32,936 nucleotides of DNA from Faecalibacter rhinopitheci (lineage in GTDB: Bacteria; Bacteroidota; Bacteroidia; Flavobacteriales; Weeksellaceae): contig NZ_JADGIK010000011.1 in NCBI RefSeq assembly GCF_015234135.1, positions 1 to 32,936 on the forward strand, read 5' to 3'. A model generated the notes under the pieces. That model saw only the letters and a list, made by a program, of their open reading frames with translations, was not told where the DNA came from and did no database searches. The position numbers were made by a program, and so were the translations under genes. This document shows, in pieces, positions 5,711 through 32,936 of this stretch (position 1 is the stretch's first letter; each line of letters begins with the position of its first letter).

Positions 5711-6207
5711 ATAATATGTTTTATAAAATTATTAAAATTTTCTTCGAAGTCTTTATAAGGTACAAAATGTTCTAGCTTATCATTCGTTACTAACATAATC
5801 TTAGCAGACTCATCCTTAAAATGTTCAAAAAATTCAATTTGTAATTTTGGGTCAATTATTTGGTCTTTTAAACCAATAAGGATCATAACATCTTTCTTAG
5901 GAAATTTTCCGTAAATATCTTCCGGAATATATTGTTTTACTTGTTCTACTACTGTTACTGCTGGATTTAACAAAAAGCATGGTAGATCTAATAATATAGC
6001 TAGATAAAAACTAAGTATACCTCCTAAACTTGTACCAGAAACAAAATCGATTTCTTCATTTTTGAATTTTTCATATAAACTATATACAATATCAGGTTGT
6101 TTATCGTAATCAATATTTGGAGCATATATATTGCCCAATTTTTGTAGATAATTCATTTTTTCATCCGTTACGAATCCTTGGTAACCATGTAAATATATTC
6201 CTTTCAT
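5701..6207 (-). CDS. YqiA-like alpha/beta-hydrolase (putative esterase)
   Basis: This 168-residue small alpha/beta-hydrolase resembles the YqiA/YcfP (UPF0227) group of single-domain esterases. It opens with IYLHGYQG, the oxyanion-region motif. The nucleophile elbow is SGTSLGG with Ser60. A late aspartate (LIGLKDQIIDP) and a histidine (KLEHFVPY) complete a plausible triad. There is no signal peptide, so it should be cytoplasmic. The physiological substrate is unknown. It lies after the secA terminator on the same strand, and its own stop codon abuts the bidirectional terminator. Confidence 0.8.
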   Translation of the reverse strand: MKGIYLHGYQGFVTDEKMNYLQKLGNIYAPNIDYDKQPDIVYSLYEKFKNEEIDFVSGTSLGGILSFYLAILLDLPCFLLNPAVTVVEQVKQYIPEDIYGKFPKKDVMILIGLKDQIIDPKLQIEFFEHFKDESAKIMLVTNDKLEHFVPYKDFEENFNNFIKHIIKK

Positions 6208-6282: not shown

Positions 6283-9200
6283 CTATGCTTCTTGTTCCGC
6301 TTGTTCTTCAGTTTTATTAGCATTTGGTAATTCACCTTTAAATAAGAATGAAATAATTTCCTTATTAACAGTACCTAACATACGTTGGAAAATCATAAAC
6401 GATTCTTGTTTATAAATCACTAAAGGATCTTTTTGCTCATAAACTGCGTTTTGAGAAGTTTTACGTAAATCATCTACATCACGTAAGTGTTCTTTCCAGT
6501 TATCATCAATTAAAGATAATACGATTGATTTTTCAAAATCTTTCACTATTGTTTTACCTTTAGATTCATAAGCCTCTTTTAAATCACAAACAACAGTCAT
6601 AGAACGTATACCATCTGTAAATGGAACTTGAATACGAGAGAACATATGTCCTTGATTTTCAAAAACTCCTGAGATTACAGGGAATGCTGTTTCTGCAACA
6701 TATACCATTCTATTTTTGTAATCTACTAAAGCAGCATTATATACGATATCTACTAATTCTTTCACATTTTTAGAAGTAAATTCAGATTCAGTAACAGGCG
6801 TACCCATTGTAAAATACTTAATTAAATCTAATTCAAATTGTTTAAAATCTTCGAATTCTTTGTTTTCTTTTACAATTGCTGCAGAAACATCAAAGATCAT
6901 ATTAGCAATATCCACTTCAAGACGATCACCAAATAATGCATTACGACGACGTTTGTAAATAACTTCACGTTGTTTATTCATCACGTCATCATATTCTAAT
7001 AAACGCTTACGAACACCGTAATTATTTTCTTCTACTTTTTTCTGCGCACGCTCTATCGATTTTGTAATCATTGAATGCTCAATAACTTCTCCATCTTTAT
7101 GTCCCATTCTGTCCATTAATTTTGCAATTCTTTCAGAACCGAATAAACGCATTAATGAATCTTCTAAAGAGATATAGAATTGAGAAGAACCTGGATCACC
7201 TTGACGACCTGCACGACCTCTTAACTGACGGTCAACACGACGAGAATCATGACGCTCAGTACCAATAATAGCTAAACCTCCTAAATCTTTCACTTCTTTA
7301 GACAATTTAATATCGGTACCACGACCAGCCATATTTGTTGCAATAGTTACTGCACCAGGTTGACCAGCTTCTGTTACGATATCAGCTTCTTTTTTATGCA
7401 ATTTAGCATTTAACACATTGTGTTTAATACCACGTAATTTTAAAGCTTTTCCTAATAATTCCGAAACTTCTACATTTGTAGTTCCCACTAAAACTGGACG
7501 TCTCTCATCTTGCGATAGACGTACAATCTCTTCAATTACAGCTTTATACTTTTCACGATTTGTTTTGAAAACAACATCATTTCTATCATGACGTAAAATC
7601 GGACGGTTAGTAGGGATTGAAACTACATCTAGGTTATAGATTTGCCAAAACTCACCCGCTTCAGTTTCCGCTGTACCAGTCATACCTCCTAATTTATTGT
7701 ACATACGGAAGTAATTCTGTAAAGTAACCGTTGCAAAAGTTTGGGTAGCAGCTTCAATTTTAACATTTTCTTTCGCTTCAATTGCTTGGTGTAAACCGTC
7801 AGAATAACGACGACCATCCATAATACGACCTGTCGATTCATCTACAATTTTAACTTCTCCATCCACTACTACATATTCATTATCATTTTCGAATAATGTA
7901 TATGCTTTTAATAATTGAGACATTGTATGAATACGCTCAGATTTGATAGAAAAGTCTCTAAAGAAATCTTCTTTTAATTGAGCAATTTCTTCTAAAGGTT
8001 TTCCTGAGTTTTCAATATTTGCTACGTTTGTAGATACATCTGGTAAGATGAAGAAATTTTCGTCCTCCATTCCTTTAGACAAATACTCAATACCTTTATC
8101 TGTTAAGTCAGACTGGTTACTTTTTTCTTCAATTGTGAAATATAAATGTTGATCAACTTTAGGCATTTCACGGTTATTATCTTGGATAAAGTAAGCTTCT
8201 GTTTTTTGTAACTGTGCTCTTACTCCATCTTGCGACAAGAATTTAATCAAAGGTTTATATTTAGGTAAACCACGGAAAACTTGGTATAATTTAAATCCAC
8301 CTTCTTTTAAATCTCCTGCTTTAAATAAAGCTTTCGCTTCATTCAAGGTTTTACCTAACAACTCACGTTGTAAGTTATATAACGTTTCAATTTTTGGTTT
8401 TAAGACATCAAATTCATGACGATCCCCTTGAGGAACTGGTCCAGAAATAATTAATGGCGTACGTGCATCATCAATTAAAACAGAATCGACCTCATCGACA
8501 ATTGCATAATTTAATTCCCCTTGTACTAACGCATCTGGAGAATTTGCCATGTTATCACGTAAATAATCGAAACCAAATTCGTTATTAGTTCCGTACACGA
8601 TATCAGATGCATATGCTTTTTTACGTCCTGGTGAGTTAGGCTGGTGATTATCGATACAATCAACCGTTAAACCGTGGAAATTAAAAATTGGTCGCATCCA
8701 CGCCATATCACGTTTAGCTAAATAATCATTCACTGTTACTAAGTGAACTCCACGTCCAGTTAAGGCATTTAAATACATTGGTAATGTTGCAACTAATGTT
8801 TTTCCTTCACCAGTTTGCATTTCGGCAATTTTACCTAAGTGTAAAGCCGAACCACCAATAAACTGAACATCATAATGAGACATATCCCATTTAACTTTAC
8901 GCCCTGCAGCATCCCATTCATTATACCATACAGCCGTATTTTCGTCCTGTAAAGTTACATAGTCTGCCCCTGCTTGTGCCAACTCACGATCAAAATCAGT
9001 AGCCGTTACAATTAATTGTTCATTAGTTGTAAAACGTTTTCCAGTTTCACGCATTACAGCAAAAGCTTCAGGAAGAATTTCTAGTAAAATCTTTTCCTCA
9101 ACTTGGTACGCTTCTTTATTAATACGGTCAATTTCTGCATAGATAGCTTCTTTTTCCGTAAAATCTTCAGTTGCTTCTACTTTAGTTTTTAACTCATTAA

Positions 9201-28999: not shown

Positions 29000-29018
29000 G
29001 GGTTATAATTTTGTATCC

Positions 29019-30110
29019 ATGCTTCGAAAAATTATCCATATCGACATGGATGCATTTTATGCTTCTGTAGAACAACGCGATTTCCCTGAATTACAAGGGA
29101 AATGCATTGCTGTGGGTGGTAATGCAGAACGTGGAGTTGTAGCAACTGCAAGCTATGAAGCTAGAAAATATGGTGTAAAATCTGCAATGCCCTCTGTAAT
29201 AGCCAAAAGAAAATGCCCTAAACTAATCTTCGTTAAACCACGTTTTGAAGTATATAAAGAAGTTTCACAACAAATTAGAGAAATTTTCAAAGAATATACC
29301 GACTTGATAGAACCCTTATCATTGGATGAGGCCTATTTGGATGTCACTAAAAATAAATTTAACCTTACAATAGCTACAGAGATTGCATTAGAAATTAAAC
29401 AAAAAATAAAGGAACGAACTCATCTTACTGCATCTGCGGGAGTCTCTTTCAATAAATTTTTAGCTAAAATTGCCTCTGATTATCATAAGCCTGATGGATT
29501 ATTTGTGATAACACCGTCGATGTCAGAAAAATTTATAGCTGAGTTACCTATTCATAAATTCCATGGAATTGGCAAAGTAACTGCTGAACGAATGGCAAAT
29601 ATGGGAATTAAAACTGGTTGGGATCTAAGACAACTTTCTTTAGAAAAAATTGCACGTGAATTTGGTAAAGCAGGTTTGCATTATTACAACATATCTCGAG
29701 GTGAAGATAATCGCCCTGTAAATGCTTCCCGAATAAGAAAATCAATCGGTTCTGAAAATACATTTTCAAATGATCTTTTTCATTATCATGATCTACAACA
29801 AGGTATTAATCCATTGATGCAAGAAGTGTGGGATTGGTGCAATACACATTATGTCTATGGTAGAACAATTACAGTAAAAATGAAATTTGATGATTTTTCA
29901 ATCACAAGTAAAAGTAAGTCTTCTGATTATCCTATAACACAAGAAAATTTATATAAAAAAATCGTTTTAGAATTATTAAAAGAAAGTTATCAGATAGGAC
30001 GAAATGTAAGACTTTTAGGCGTTTCTGTTTCGAACTTGACTGATTTTAAACTTCACGAAGGAAGACAATTGCTTTTGGATTTTGAGAGTGTATCTTCAAA
30101 TATTATCTAA
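29019..30110 (+). CDS. dinB: DNA polymerase IV (Y-family, translesion)
   Basis: This 363-residue error-prone polymerase copies past lesions in the cytoplasm. The catalytic carboxylates are in HIDMDAFYASVEQ (Asp9) and SLDEAYLDV (Asp103, Glu104). The little-finger domain follows, and near the C-terminus QLLLDF fits a beta-clamp-binding motif. It starts 19 bp after the antiporter gene. Its last 15 bases overlap the end of the convergent recombinase gene. Pol IV belongs to the SOS response in many bacteria, which makes its position beside a cassette recombinase notable, though no LexA-type site is identifiable here. Confidence 0.96.
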   Translation: MLRKIIHIDMDAFYASVEQRDFPELQGKCIAVGGNAERGVVATASYEARKYGVKSAMPSVIAKRKCPKLIFVKPRFEVYKEVSQQIREIFKEYTDLIEPLSLDEAYLDVTKNKFNLTIATEIALEIKQKIKERTHLTASAGVSFNKFLAKIASDYHKPDGLFVITPSMSEKFIAELPIHKFHGIGKVTAERMANMGIKTGWDLRQLSLEKIAREFGKAGLHYYNISRGEDNRPVNASRIRKSIGSENTFSNDLFHYHDLQQGINPLMQEVWDWCNTHYVYGRTITVKMKFDDFSITSKSKSSDYPITQENLYKKIVLELLKESYQIGRNVRLLGVSVSNLTDFKLHEGRQLLLDFESVSSNII

Positions 30111-31190
30111 AGGAGATTTAATTTTGAGAAGAGATTTTTTAGAAACGTGCGTATAAGTAAGCGTGGTTTTTATATCATTATGTCCTAATAATTGTTGTAT
30201 CAACGCAAGATCGGTTCCATTTTCTAATAAATGTGTAGCAAAAGAATGTCTAAGACTATGAACTCCCACATTTTTACGCGAATTAGTTTTTTTCAAAGCA
30301 TTTTTAAAGATAATTTGTACCGTTCTCGTCGACATTTGATTTCCAAATCTATTTTCAAATAAAAATTCCTTCGGACGGTAAGTCATATAGTATTCTCTAA
30401 GTGCTTCTAATAAAGATTCTGGTAGAATTGTAATACGATCTTTTTTTCCTTTTGCACCTTTTATATGCACCAGCATTCTTTCACTGTCCAAATCTCCAAT
30501 CTTAAGCTTTACAACTTCACTAACACGTAATCCCATACCATACATTGTTTTCAGAATCATCTGATGCTTTAGATTTTTTGTTAAAGTAATTATCTGCTTT
30601 ATTTCGTATACAGAAAGTACTTTAGGAAGTTTCTCAGGACGTTTGGGGCGCGGGATATCGTATATAACCCGAGGACGCATTAACACTTTTTCGTACAAAA
30701 ATTTTATTGCGTTCATTCTAGAATTTATTGTAAATTCAGACAAACCCAAATTATCCATACAATAAACTAAATACTTACGTATTTGATCAGTTGTAATATC
30801 TTCAACAGTATAATTTTTGAACATTTTAAAGAACGAAATCAATTCACTTCCGTATGTTTTTATTGTATTTGGACTGTAAGCCATCAATTTTAATTGCTGT
30901 ATAGTATCTAAAAAGTAAATTTTATGTTCTTCAGCTAATTGATGTATAGCAGGAAATTGTTCGGTTGTAATACCTATAAATTTTCTATTTTCTGTTGTAT
31001 CTTTTATATACCATTTTTTTTCAGTCGCAGAGTAATATAATTTAATTAACTGTTTTAATGGAGCTATAGAAATGGAATCTTTGGCATAAATAACCCAAAT
31101 AACTTTTTGATTTTTATGTATGCCAGCTTCAAACTTATAATTAGATAAATTAACACTTCCCATCTTGAGATAATTTGTATTAACGAACAT
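30096..31190 (-). CDS. Tyrosine recombinase/integrase of the cassette array
   Basis: This 364-residue site-specific recombinase has three parts. Residues 1 to about 92 are an unusual N-terminal extension (KNQKVIWVIYAKDSIS, KKWYIKD). Residues about 93-172 are the SAM-like core-binding domain (SPNTIKTYGSELISFF). Residues about 185-364 are the catalytic domain, with Arg222 (GMGLRVSE), a lysine at 247-250, His311/Arg314 (HSLRHSFATH), His337 (LLGHND) and the nucleophile Tyr346 (TLTYTHVS). All catalytic residues are present. It resembles XerC/D and lacks the IntI-specific insertion. It diverges from the cassettes and overlaps the end of dinB by 15 bp. Confidence 0.92.
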   Translation of the reverse strand: MFVNTNYLKMGSVNLSNYKFEAGIHKNQKVIWVIYAKDSISIAPLKQLIKLYYSATEKKWYIKDTTENRKFIGITTEQFPAIHQLAEEHKIYFLDTIQQLKLMAYSPNTIKTYGSELISFFKMFKNYTVEDITTDQIRKYLVYCMDNLGLSEFTINSRMNAIKFLYEKVLMRPRVIYDIPRPKRPEKLPKVLSVYEIKQIITLTKNLKHQMILKTMYGMGLRVSEVVKLKIGDLDSERMLVHIKGAKGKKDRITILPESLLEALREYYMTYRPKEFLFENRFGNQMSTRTVQIIFKNALKKTNSRKNVGVHSLRHSFATHLLENGTDLALIQQLLGHNDIKTTLTYTHVSKKSLLKIKSPLDNI

Positions 31191-31288
31191 ATACTCATGT
31201 ACTATAAAATTACGTTTATTTTTTCAATCTAGCTGATAGTAAGCATTTAAGTAAAAAAAATAAATTTGTTTATATCATCTATGTTCGT
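31183..31288. repeat. 9-bp inverted repeat flanking the recombinase-cassette intergenic region
   Basis: ACGAACATA (31183-31191) covers the recombinase start codon, and its exact reverse complement TATGTTCGT (31280-31288) lies in the cassette promoter. These are candidate recombinase or regulator binding sites. Confidence 0.5.
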
Positions 31289-31295
31289 ATATTTG
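31265..31295 (+). promoter_or_regulatory. Cassette promoter (Pc-like)
   Basis: TTTG (31265-31268) is followed after exactly 19 bp by TATATTTG (31288-31295), a perfect Bacteroidetes promoter. The predicted start of transcription, near 31302, falls at the attI-like core, so it would drive the first cassettes. The orientation is away from the recombinase. Confidence 0.75.
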
Positions 31296-31298
31296 AGT

Positions 31299-31308
31299 GT
31301 TATGTGCA
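31299..31308 (+). other. attI-like recombination core
   Basis: GTTATGTGCA marks the junction between the leader and cassette 1. Its full reverse complement begins the repeat at the end of cassette 1 (31723-31732). The expected cleavage point by analogy with integrons is between G31299 and T31300. Confidence 0.6.
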
Positions 31309-31342
31309 ATACTACCAAAACTTCCTTAAAAAAAATCTTGCA

Positions 31343-31714
31343 ATGAATGATAATATTCGAAACTTTTTACTTAAAATTTGTCCTGAAATCTTAGAAGGAG
31401 AATTTTCTCAAAAAAGTATAATAGAATATATTCAAACTGTGAAAATATTGGAAATTGAATTCACTGGAAATGGTTGCTTTATTAATTTAGATTCCGAAAA
31501 CTCAAATTTTGAAATGGAAATAATAAATAAAATGCACAATCAAAATGAATTAAATTTCGACGGACTTGAATTAATTAATAAAGATAAAAACTTATTATGC
31601 GAAATACGCATATTAATTATACAACAAAAAATTAATCTCATAGAAATATGGAATAAGTTGGGATCTAATTTTACAGAAATTCCATCTGAATATGAATTAA
31701 ATAAAAATTGGTAA
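31343..31714 (+). CDS. Cassette 1 protein, unknown
   Basis: This is a 123-residue, acidic, Asn/Ile/Glu-rich protein without a signal peptide or membrane segment (opening MNDNIRNFLLKI). A frame is also open from a GTG at 31304, but that lies within the recombination core, so the ATG at 31343 is preferred. I recognise no family. It occupies most of cassette 1, is on the same strand as the array promoter, and is very AT-rich, as integron cassette genes often are relative to their hosts. Confidence 0.65.
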   Translation: MNDNIRNFLLKICPEILEGEFSQKSIIEYIQTVKILEIEFTGNGCFINLDSENSNFEMEIINKMHNQNELNFDGLELINKDKNLLCEIRILIIQQKINLIEIWNKLGSNFTEIPSEYELNKNW

Positions 31715-31722
31715 TAAAGTAC

Positions 31723-31916
31723 TGCACATAACATACTATTTGCGAAAAAACGGGCTGAAAGTAAACTTTTTTGTCATAATTTTCCACTCGCAAAATTGCT
31801 TTTCTAAAAACAATACACTAATTTAGTTTTAGCCAAGTAATTTGCTTGAACGGACGAACTTGAACTTCGTTCAATTTCTCTCCCGTTCTTCGCAAATACT
31901 CGGCTCGTTGTATGTA
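31723..31916 (+). repeat. attC-like site 1
   Basis: It begins with TGCACATAAC (31723-31732) and ends with the core GTTGTATGTA (31907-31916). Arms 31737-31754 and 31882-31898 pair over about 17 bp with one bulge (TATTTGCGAA... / ...TTCGCAAATA). An inner hairpin is TTGAAC-TTC-GTTCAA (31860-31874). Most of the roughly 190 bp is shared with the second site. Confidence 0.75.
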
Positions 31917-31932
31917 ATTATCAAAACAACTC

Positions 31933-32622
31933 ATGAAATTAATATATACTTTTATTATAAGCTTATTCATCATAAGTTGTAATAAAAATTCTGAAATCGA
32001 ATATCAATTCGATAACGACTACATTTTTAATGACTTTAAGAAAGAATTTATTTCTTATGATTTAAATAATATAAACGATTCTATTTCTGAAAGAAAAACT
32101 TTATACAAAGATAAATTAATAAGAACTGACACATTACTTTCTAAAAATCAAAAAAGTAAATTTATTGGTTGGACAAAATTTTACGATACTATTGAAAATT
32201 CAAATACAGAAAAATTTATTGAAAACTTCAGGTTTAAAAATAATATTATAAAGTTTAACCAATTAATTGTTAAAGAAAATGACACAATTAATTATTCTAA
32301 AAGCTTTTTCTATAAATTTCATGGTAATAAAATTGTATTTTATCTTCCAGAAGAAATGAAATTTTCTAGAAATTCAAATAATGAAATTCTATTTTTTTTA
32401 CTTGACGATATTGAAAATCCATCTGTAAATCTTCCACAATTATTCAAACAAAAAAGTGAAGAATTAAACTTTTTGACTATTCATGAAAAATCTAATTATT
32501 CAGAAGCTGAATATCTTATAGATCCAGAAAAAAAAGATCTTAAAGGTATTTTTGTATATTTTGAATATGAGCCAAAAACTTTTGACATTAGTACTTATTC
32601 TATACTTCATATAAAAAGATAA
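31933..32622 (+). CDS. Cassette 2 protein: uncharacterised lipoprotein
   Basis: This 229-residue protein has a short signal peptide ending LFIISC (lipidation Cys16) and should be anchored in the cell envelope. The mature part is polar and mostly beta-rich, with many Lys/Asn/Ser (e.g. KFIGWTKFYDTIENSN). I recognise no family. It is the sole ORF of cassette 2, starting 25 bp after the core. Because the preceding cassette has no evident terminator, it may be transcribed from the shared promoter. Confidence 0.75.
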   Translation: MKLIYTFIISLFIISCNKNSEIEYQFDNDYIFNDFKKEFISYDLNNINDSISERKTLYKDKLIRTDTLLSKNQKSKFIGWTKFYDTIENSNTEKFIENFRFKNNIIKFNQLIVKENDTINYSKSFFYKFHGNKIVFYLPEEMKFSRNSNNEILFFLLDDIENPSVNLPQLFKQKSEELNFLTIHEKSNYSEAEYLIDPEKKDLKGIFVYFEYEPKTFDISTYSILHIKR

Positions 32623-32623
32623 C

Positions 32624-32820
32624 TACATACAACATAGTATTTCGCAAAAAACGGGCTGAAAGTAAACTTTCATCCCATCTTTTTCCACTCGCAAAATTGC
32701 TTTTCTTAAAACATTAACTTAAATTAGTTTCAGAAAAGAGCAATTTGCTTGAACGCACGAACTTGAGCTTTCGCTCAATTTCTGTCCCGTTCTTCGCAAA
32801 TACTCGTCTCGTTATACGAT
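32624..32820 (+). repeat. attC-like site 2
   Basis: It begins TACATACAAC (32624-32633) and ends with the core GTTATACGAT (32811-32820). Outer arms 32637-32655 and 32786-32803 pair with small bulges, leaving extrahelical bases. The inner hairpin is TTGAGC-TTTC-GCTCAA (32763-32778), which differs from site 1 by a compensated A-T to G-C change. Confidence 0.75.
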
Positions 32821-32828
32821 ATTATTGA

Positions 32829-32936
32829 ATGAAAATAACTGATATTAAAGAAACATACTCAAAATACATTTATACTGTAAATGAATTTAATGAAAGGGTT
32901 CGAATTCTAACTGACGTTGAAGTTAATCGAAAAGTA
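32829..32936 (+). CDS. Cassette 3 protein, partial (runs off the window)
   Basis: ATG 17 bp after the third core opens a frame that is still open at the window edge after 36 codons (start MKITDIKETYSKYIYTV). It is on the array strand, as are the other cassette genes. Too short to identify. Confidence 0.5.
   Translation, partial: MKITDIKETYSKYIYTVNEFNERVRILTDVEVNRKV

Follow-up and report, generated by a model that had tools for sequence, protein, structure and literature searches.

A candidate integron-like cassette platform with a tyrosine recombinase outside the IntI clade in Faecalibacter rhinopitheci

Is the cassette array at the right-hand end of a Faecalibacter rhinopitheci contig an integron, and if it is not, what kind of system is it? 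Integrons comprise the integrase IntI, the attachment site attI, a cassette promoter (Pc), and attC cassettes with palindromes of the order R''-L''-L'-R'. The stretch analysed here (the window) is one complete contig (C3; 32,936 nucleotides) of a 2.89 Mb genome assembled into 44 contigs. From left to right, its right end carries dinB, a minus-strand tyrosine recombinase gene, a promoter, a GTT core, 2 full cassettes, and a truncated third cassette. A preliminary description had recognized in this layout a distinct integron-like system with a Xer-like recombinase, and sequence tests on the F. rhinopitheci genome and on relatives support that reading: we consider it very probable, from sequence comparison, that the locus functions in the manner of an integron, as a chromosomal platform for capturing cassettes, and belongs to a lineage separate from IntI. 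The coordinates confirm the anatomy previously described, in which the recombinase diverges from the promoter, which is followed by the core and by cassettes that each carry one same-strand open reading frame (ORF) and a palindromic repeat:

30096–31190, minus strand: tyrosine recombinase ORF, 364 amino acids, likely start 31163
31184–31191 and 31280–31287: inverted arms CGAACATA and TATGTTCG, respectively, on either side of the attI/promoter region, read by eye
31265–31295, plus strand: predicted cassette promoter Pc, TTTG-N19-TATATTTG, a consensus match only
31286–31307, plus strand: attI, composed of CGTATATTTGAGT followed by the core GTTATGTGC (31299–31307), with which R'' of cassette 1 pairs
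31299–31906, plus strand: cassette 1, with one same-strand ORF (31343–31714)
31724–31915, plus strand: attC-like site 1, from R'' GCACATAAC (31724–31732) to the R' core GTTGTATGT (31907–31915)
31907–32810, plus strand: cassette 2, with one same-strand ORF (31933–32622; lipoprotein-like signal by eye)
32625–32819, plus strand: attC-like site 2, from R'' ACATACAAC (32625–32633) to the R' core GTTATACGA (32811–32819)
32811–32936, plus strand: start of cassette 3, interrupted by the contig end at 32936

The 2 window repeats (31721–31921 and 32622–32825) are 83% identical and span 182 and 185 bp from R'' to R'. No Rfam model matched within 29000–32936, and neither window cassette protein matched Pfam.

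In integrons, the core at the start of a cassette is complementary to the R'' box of that cassette's own attC, since both meet in the circle. The same rule was found in 3 data sets: (i) in the F. rhinopitheci genome, start core and own R'' were complementary at 184 of 192 positions (6 per cassette) and perfect in 28 of 32 cassettes, compared with a mean of 3.06 matches of 6 for the right-hand core (part of the following cassette) and with 126 for the best of 20,000 permutations; (ii) 26 of 80 related loci (the best 80 of 207 relatives retained from a scan of genome contigs, all 80 titled Bacteroidota) yielded 68 neighbouring pairs, with 357 of 408 positions complementary and 48 pairs perfect, compared with 196 for the right-hand core and 231 for the best of 20,000 permutations; and (iii) among 13 recombinase-positive genomes selected from the genus and family, 10 supplied 98 gaps, for which the values were 518 of 588 and 73 perfect, compared with 281 and, for the best of 5,000 permutations, 330. 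The proposed cassette borders at GTT are confirmed by this complementarity, and the repeats mark these borders. Complementarity between the start core and R'' is a signature of units that move as folded circles.

An initial form of the core-rule test had given mixed values, which came from attC of other sequence families hidden inside long "cassettes." Gap reading, together with a structural detector (YAACA; an 8-base L'' pairing with L'; a second G+C stem; GTTR), resolved most of them. Within the F. rhinopitheci cores, a mismatch recurs near the outer end of the R box, where the core has GYAAT and R'' has GYAGT; this mismatch is perhaps a strand marker.

The array extends far beyond the window, where the preliminary description had anticipated further copies of the repeat. 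With one repeat as the query, 25 strong places were found in the F. rhinopitheci genome, 22 of them on contigs shorter than 18 kb. Besides the window, the array survey took in 10 small contigs and 8 kb from the start of contig C1; across these 12 stretches the structural detector called 35 sites forward and none in reverse, compared with 0.6 expected by shuffling (about 3 of these forward hits are spurious, and the detector recovers about 32 of 41 sites). Sequence, structure, and reading by eye together gave 41 attC-like sites on 11 contigs, a count that takes in one partial site and two with a damaged first core base; an additional decayed site near the start of C1 lies outside it. The direction of the sites is uniform within each contig, and at least 6 sequence families of the repeat, as judged by eye, coexist in this one genome. 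The longest ORF ran forward in all 62 cassettes inspected (32 from F. rhinopitheci and 30 from the same-genus genome G148). Among 34 cassette ORFs scanned (32 of the 33 listed plus two more), two encode OLD/GajA-like ATPases, and one each matched the GNAT acetyltransferase, WD40, DUF6994, TOTE-type, and GldB models.

Single cassettes are common to different species of the genus. In G148, a complete genome in one contig, attI and 30 attC stand in a row beside the recombinase, none of them reversed. Window cassette 1 and G148 cassette 16 share 98.3% identity across 637 bases. Their similarity sets in precisely at the GTT at 31299, to the left of which one genome has attI and the other an attC end, and on the right the sequences diverge after the next GTT, the alignment trailing about 28 bases further. 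Another cassette (C8-1) is 97.0% identical to G148 DNA over 711 bases, beginning exactly at its own core. The platform DNA (30001–31309) is 70.0% identical to that of G148, with protein identities of 66% (recombinase), 79% (DinB), and 85% (KefB-like; 637 of 753 residues). Between the 30 cassettes of G148 and the 32 of F. rhinopitheci, 4 cassette proteins are 88%–99% identical and occupy other positions, and 2 G148 cassette proteins are present as identical copies inside G148. The same-genus genome G155, likewise complete in one contig, carries the recombinase and the attI motif twice, and no attC was detected in 44 kb; G155 is either an empty platform or one whose array was missed by the detector. 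Cassette content is not fixed between species (G148 and G155 against F. rhinopitheci), the comparison covering other species and not strains. In Faecalibacter macacae (L042) and in the same-genus genome G153, a recombinase 65% identical to that of the window lies at the same contig coordinates. The expectation that dinB accompanies the recombinase proved too narrow: dinB was found in only L042 of the 80 related loci (flanks of up to 10 kb) and, among 3 further genomes examined, in G148 and G155 and not in G205. Being confined to the genus, the dinB neighbourhood is a genus marker, and we rejected it as a marker of the system.

Among the 80 related loci, the sites keep company with one clade of recombinases and with one direction. 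On the 5' side of the recombinase the detector called 46 sites against 2 in the opposite direction (4 in one shuffled copy), and on the 3' side 66 against 1; among the 13 genus and family genomes examined, one site, in G190, was called in reverse. attC hits occurred in 39 of the 80 loci (26 of them with two or more), and attI, attC, or both lay beside the recombinase in 54. In the 28 loci with both, the attC were on the attI side 77 to 2. No attI or attC of this kind was found in 18 control loci of 2–7 kb (10 IntI, 5 other F. rhinopitheci recombinases, and 3 from E. coli). The recombinase profile, which is broad, matched 104 of 198 genomes of the class at an expectation value (E) of 1e-50, and 55 of 120 genomes of the family and 6 of 14 of the genus at E 1e-60. 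The exact attI motif, which is narrow, occurred in 7 of the 198 class genomes (12 sites; 1 match in the backward control), 6 of these 7 being recombinase-positive. One genome of the class (G037) holds a true IntI gene (E 1.9e-126), and locus L102 has direct repeats of about 200 bp that the detector did not call.

The attI motif, CGTATATTTG-NNN-GTTR with at most one substitution, adjoined the recombinase at 43 of the 80 loci, 21 times divergent from the gene and 22 times downstream and co-directional; there was one further match away from the recombinase, in L103, and none in shuffles of 40 loci. In 13 of 14 divergent loci there was a core sharing 8 or all 9 bases with that of the first attC detected, and in 12 it stood at attI, the exceptions being L068 (first hit due to chance) and L100. 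Another attI-like site, which also has inverted arms and a -7-like box, was noticed on the minus strand of F. rhinopitheci contig C8 (L031; core near 6126); it heads seven attC-like sites and has no adjoining recombinase. G364 and G290 hold four and three exact attI motifs, respectively, on separate contigs, with one recombinase match each. Judging from such sequences, orphan landing sites may be common.

Bacteroidota promoters follow a -33/-7 type consensus, and in the window the -7 box TATATTTG falls inside attI. The TTTG-N19-TANNTTTG pattern occurs twice in the window against 0.56 expected; alone it proves little, because 10 of 100 window shuffles hold two or more. In the 43 attI of relatives, an exact -33 TTTG lies 17–22 bases upstream at 15 (3.4 in shuffles), and TANNTTTG is exact in 24; the latter count is not independent of the motif that served to locate these sites. 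A sigma-70 scan of 31100–31400 gave 1 site, against 2.0 in shuffles. The inverted arms flanking this region pair with each other in the computed attI-region fold, and they are possible binding sites for the recombinase or a regulator, LexA-type control being one conceivable form.

The catalytic residues of the recombinase are intact. Its true start is probably 31163, because residues 1–10 have a predicted local distance difference test score below 50 in the structure model and relatives start near residue 10. The additional domain specific to IntI (I2, or the patch III region) is absent: the structure 2a3v aligned to the recombinase as 12–181 and 242–318, with 2a3v residues 182–241 opposite about 17 recombinase residues, and the same region is a gap in the recombinase when it is aligned with 4 IntI sequences. 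In a tree of 35 rows, IntI (100/100), the window group (97/90), and Xer (99/97) each occupy one side of a branch, so that the recombinase stands outside both the IntI clade and the Xer branch; with the root placed in Xer, its group is perhaps sister to IntI. The trees exclude L083, whose extracted reading frame has only 101 amino acids, and their labels score L089 (a doubtful 5' match plus 3' matches) as 3' and L108 as none. The best structural match of the recombinase was XerA, in a search that barely covered residues 1–84.

Sites of the same kind border resistance genes on plasmids. Three attC families were searched against plasmids; two matched 11 and 22 records, mostly Weeksellaceae and other Bacteroidota with one Salmonella, and family A had no match. 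An attC-like site adjoins resistance genes in 7 of the 8 plasmid stretches read. On plasmids L209, L210, L213, and L214, tet(X) and aadS form exact units with GTT-core borders and their own attC-like palindromes, and each of the 2 units obeys the core rule at 9 of 9 positions in 3 plasmids. The aadS unit (1,029 bp) is 99.8% identical between L209 and L210, and its left and right neighbours are 17% and 37% identical. The tet(X) unit (1,327 bp) of L210 is 92.5% identical to its counterparts in L213 and L214; the right neighbours are 35%–37% identical, and the left neighbour is the same attC end in all 3 plasmids. A start core matching the ere(D) unit was found in L213 and not in L208 or L210. 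In L144, tet(X3) begins at the same GTTATGTGC core, beside a TnpF ("xerD") gene (1052–1717) that is a shortened relative of the window recombinase (48% identity over 61% of the query). Two other plasmid recombinases, L142 and L143 (41%–42% identical), have no convincing attI, so not every relative need be an integron recombinase. The Chryseobacterium plasmid L143 also has a 79-bp palindrome-like repeat near 7219, 9314, and 11695, with the same left box TCTCCCAAC each time; this repeat is unlike the attC of the window system.

Which enzyme acts on these sites could be answered in other ways. That the locus is an ordinary integron whose IntI has merely diverged is highly improbable: the recombinase scores below the 265-bit cut-off with a match split into 2 stretches, it lacks about 40 residues of the IntI insertion, the IntI rows form their own branch separate from the window group, and the integron core GTTRRRY fits only 1 of the 43 F. 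rhinopitheci cores (41 attC and 2 attI) and 6 of 112 in relatives. With the additional domain absent, the recombinase outside the IntI clade, and cores that read GTTRNNNGY, the locus is not an IntI integron as defined. Housekeeping XerC/XerD are known to mobilize pdif modules, and the genome does hold 2 other Xer-type genes (152 and 122 bits to Phage_integrase, compared with 138 for the window recombinase), so that the repeats might be moved by that pair with the adjoining recombinase as a bystander. This explanation is barely credible in view of the 54 of 80 loci in which sites accompany a window-type recombinase, on the same side 77 to 2, and of the lack of such sites in the 3.5 kb around the F. 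rhinopitheci Xer genes; the window recombinase itself is a third gene beside the 2 Xer-type genes and not a member of the conserved XerC/XerD pair.

How the sites are recombined, and whether they still are, bears on the same question. Recombination might take place on double-stranded cores as in Xer/dif, the palindrome serving only as a binding platform; the match to XerA speaks for this, as does the absence of the I2 domain, which PMC7790495, in its accessible parts, holds necessary for single-strand recombination and capture and reports from no other protein. We regard this alternative as unlikely, because, in one cassette after another, R'' and the cassette's own R' remain complementary at their variable bases, a constraint that a core used only in double-stranded form would not impose. 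This co-variation is the best evidence for pairing of R'' with R' within one strand. In addition, in a folding analysis that covered bottom strands only, all 5 attC folded as single-stranded DNA better than the mean shuffle (z-scores of -3.6 for attC-like site 1, then -2.7, -2.0, -1.9, and -2.9), and the attI region hardly did (-0.9). The array could also be a fossil whose cassettes no longer move, as several array contigs end in pieces resembling insertion sequences (by eye) and the last site, on C1, is decayed. This is very unlikely, considering the intact catalytic residues, the cassettes that are 97%–98% identical between species in which the platform DNA is 70% identical, and the identical cassette proteins within G148.

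Several observations weigh against an integron-like platform or limit its reach. The F. rhinopitheci array is split over contigs whose order and relative direction are not fixed by the assembly. The core rule is imperfect in 20 of the 68 and 25 of the 98 neighbouring pairs, and L077, parts of L113, G223, G234, and parts of G182 are near random; these near-random pairs stem from missed sites, chance hits, or decayed arrays. Neither attI nor attC was found in 26 of the 80 relatives; in 19 of them the match has a contig end no more than 500 bases away on one side, and the remaining 7 (L050, L055, L097, L101, L102, L116, and L120) have none that close. Some single attC hits may be due to chance. 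G146 has an exact attI and is recombinase-negative, G356 has an exact attI and a recombinase copy with internal stops, and ere(D) and catB run counter to the direction of their own units (L210, L211, L213, and L214).

In the integron-like platform that we prefer, the recombinase would act at the GTT core, joining attI to a circular cassette through the attC-like palindrome of the latter; the incoming cassette would land next to attI, Pc inside attI would drive its gene, and recombination between 2 attC would free circular cassettes. The complementarity maintained between the variable bases of R'' and R' in each cassette makes a folded single strand, or a cruciform, the most likely form of the attC substrate. 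The sequences themselves establish the anatomy, the core rule, the orientation, the borders, the sharing of single cassettes across species, and the link with this clade of recombinases. We infer that the window recombinase is the enzyme, that the hairpin is its substrate, which strand is used, and that cassette genes are expressed from Pc.

The system resembles chromosomal (sedentary) integrons in its one-direction cassettes, in the attI beside the recombinase, in the R''-L''-L'-R' palindromes with unequal unpaired spacers, and in the start core complementary to its own R''. It differs from them in that (i) the recombinase lacks the IntI additional domain, lies outside the IntI branch, and often has an extra N-terminal domain; and (ii) the core is GTTRNNNGY and attI consists of a conserved CGTATATTTGNGNGTT with the -7 promoter box inside it. 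Unlike the Xer recombinases (XerA, XerC, XerD, and XerH) acting with dif, the window recombinase adjoins arrays and forms another branch. Both orientations of intI occur in integrons, for example in Treponema, according to the part of PMC3607928 consulted.

The platform, its recombinase, attI, and arrays were not described in the literature searched, which included the accessible parts of PMC8138268, PMC2426708, PMC9784759, and PMC8635130 and had preprints and most subscription journals outside its reach. Reviews list Bacteroidota among integron-bearing phyla (PMC8618304 and PMC9668308, in part), and the IntegronFinder 2.0 paper, in the sections available, names one complete Bacteroidetes integron, in Salinibacter (PMC9024848). 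In Riemerella anatipestifer, the available portion of PMC13148043 describes an aph(3')-IVb unit with 27 bp of 5' and 140 bp of 3' flank that inserted without homology, reports that the 3' flank folds like attC, and proposes attC-like, site-specific insertion; that portion names no recombinase, array, or attI. Compared by published description only, the unit would fit a cassette of the window system. The TnpF/XerD fragment beside tet(X3) is a relative of the window group, but it has 221 amino acids with the N-terminal part missing, and the papers, as far as their text was accessible, ascribe movement of the tet(X3) unit to ISCR2 or ISVsa3.

This system would probably escape tools that require both IntI and GTTRRRY cores. 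It could explain the homology-free insertion of the Riemerella resistance units (PMC13148043, in part) and the way in which tet(X) and aadS have spread on plasmids in exact units. If the cassettes do move, single-strand capture needs no I2 domain, contrary to the accessible account in PMC7790495. On balance, we think it likely that this is a second, phylum-wide integron lineage of Bacteroidota, in which folded cassettes would be recombined without the IntI domain, which the lineage perhaps never had; capture would then either predate the domain or have arisen twice, and tet(X), aadS, and mobile resistance genes like them would have their native home in this lineage.

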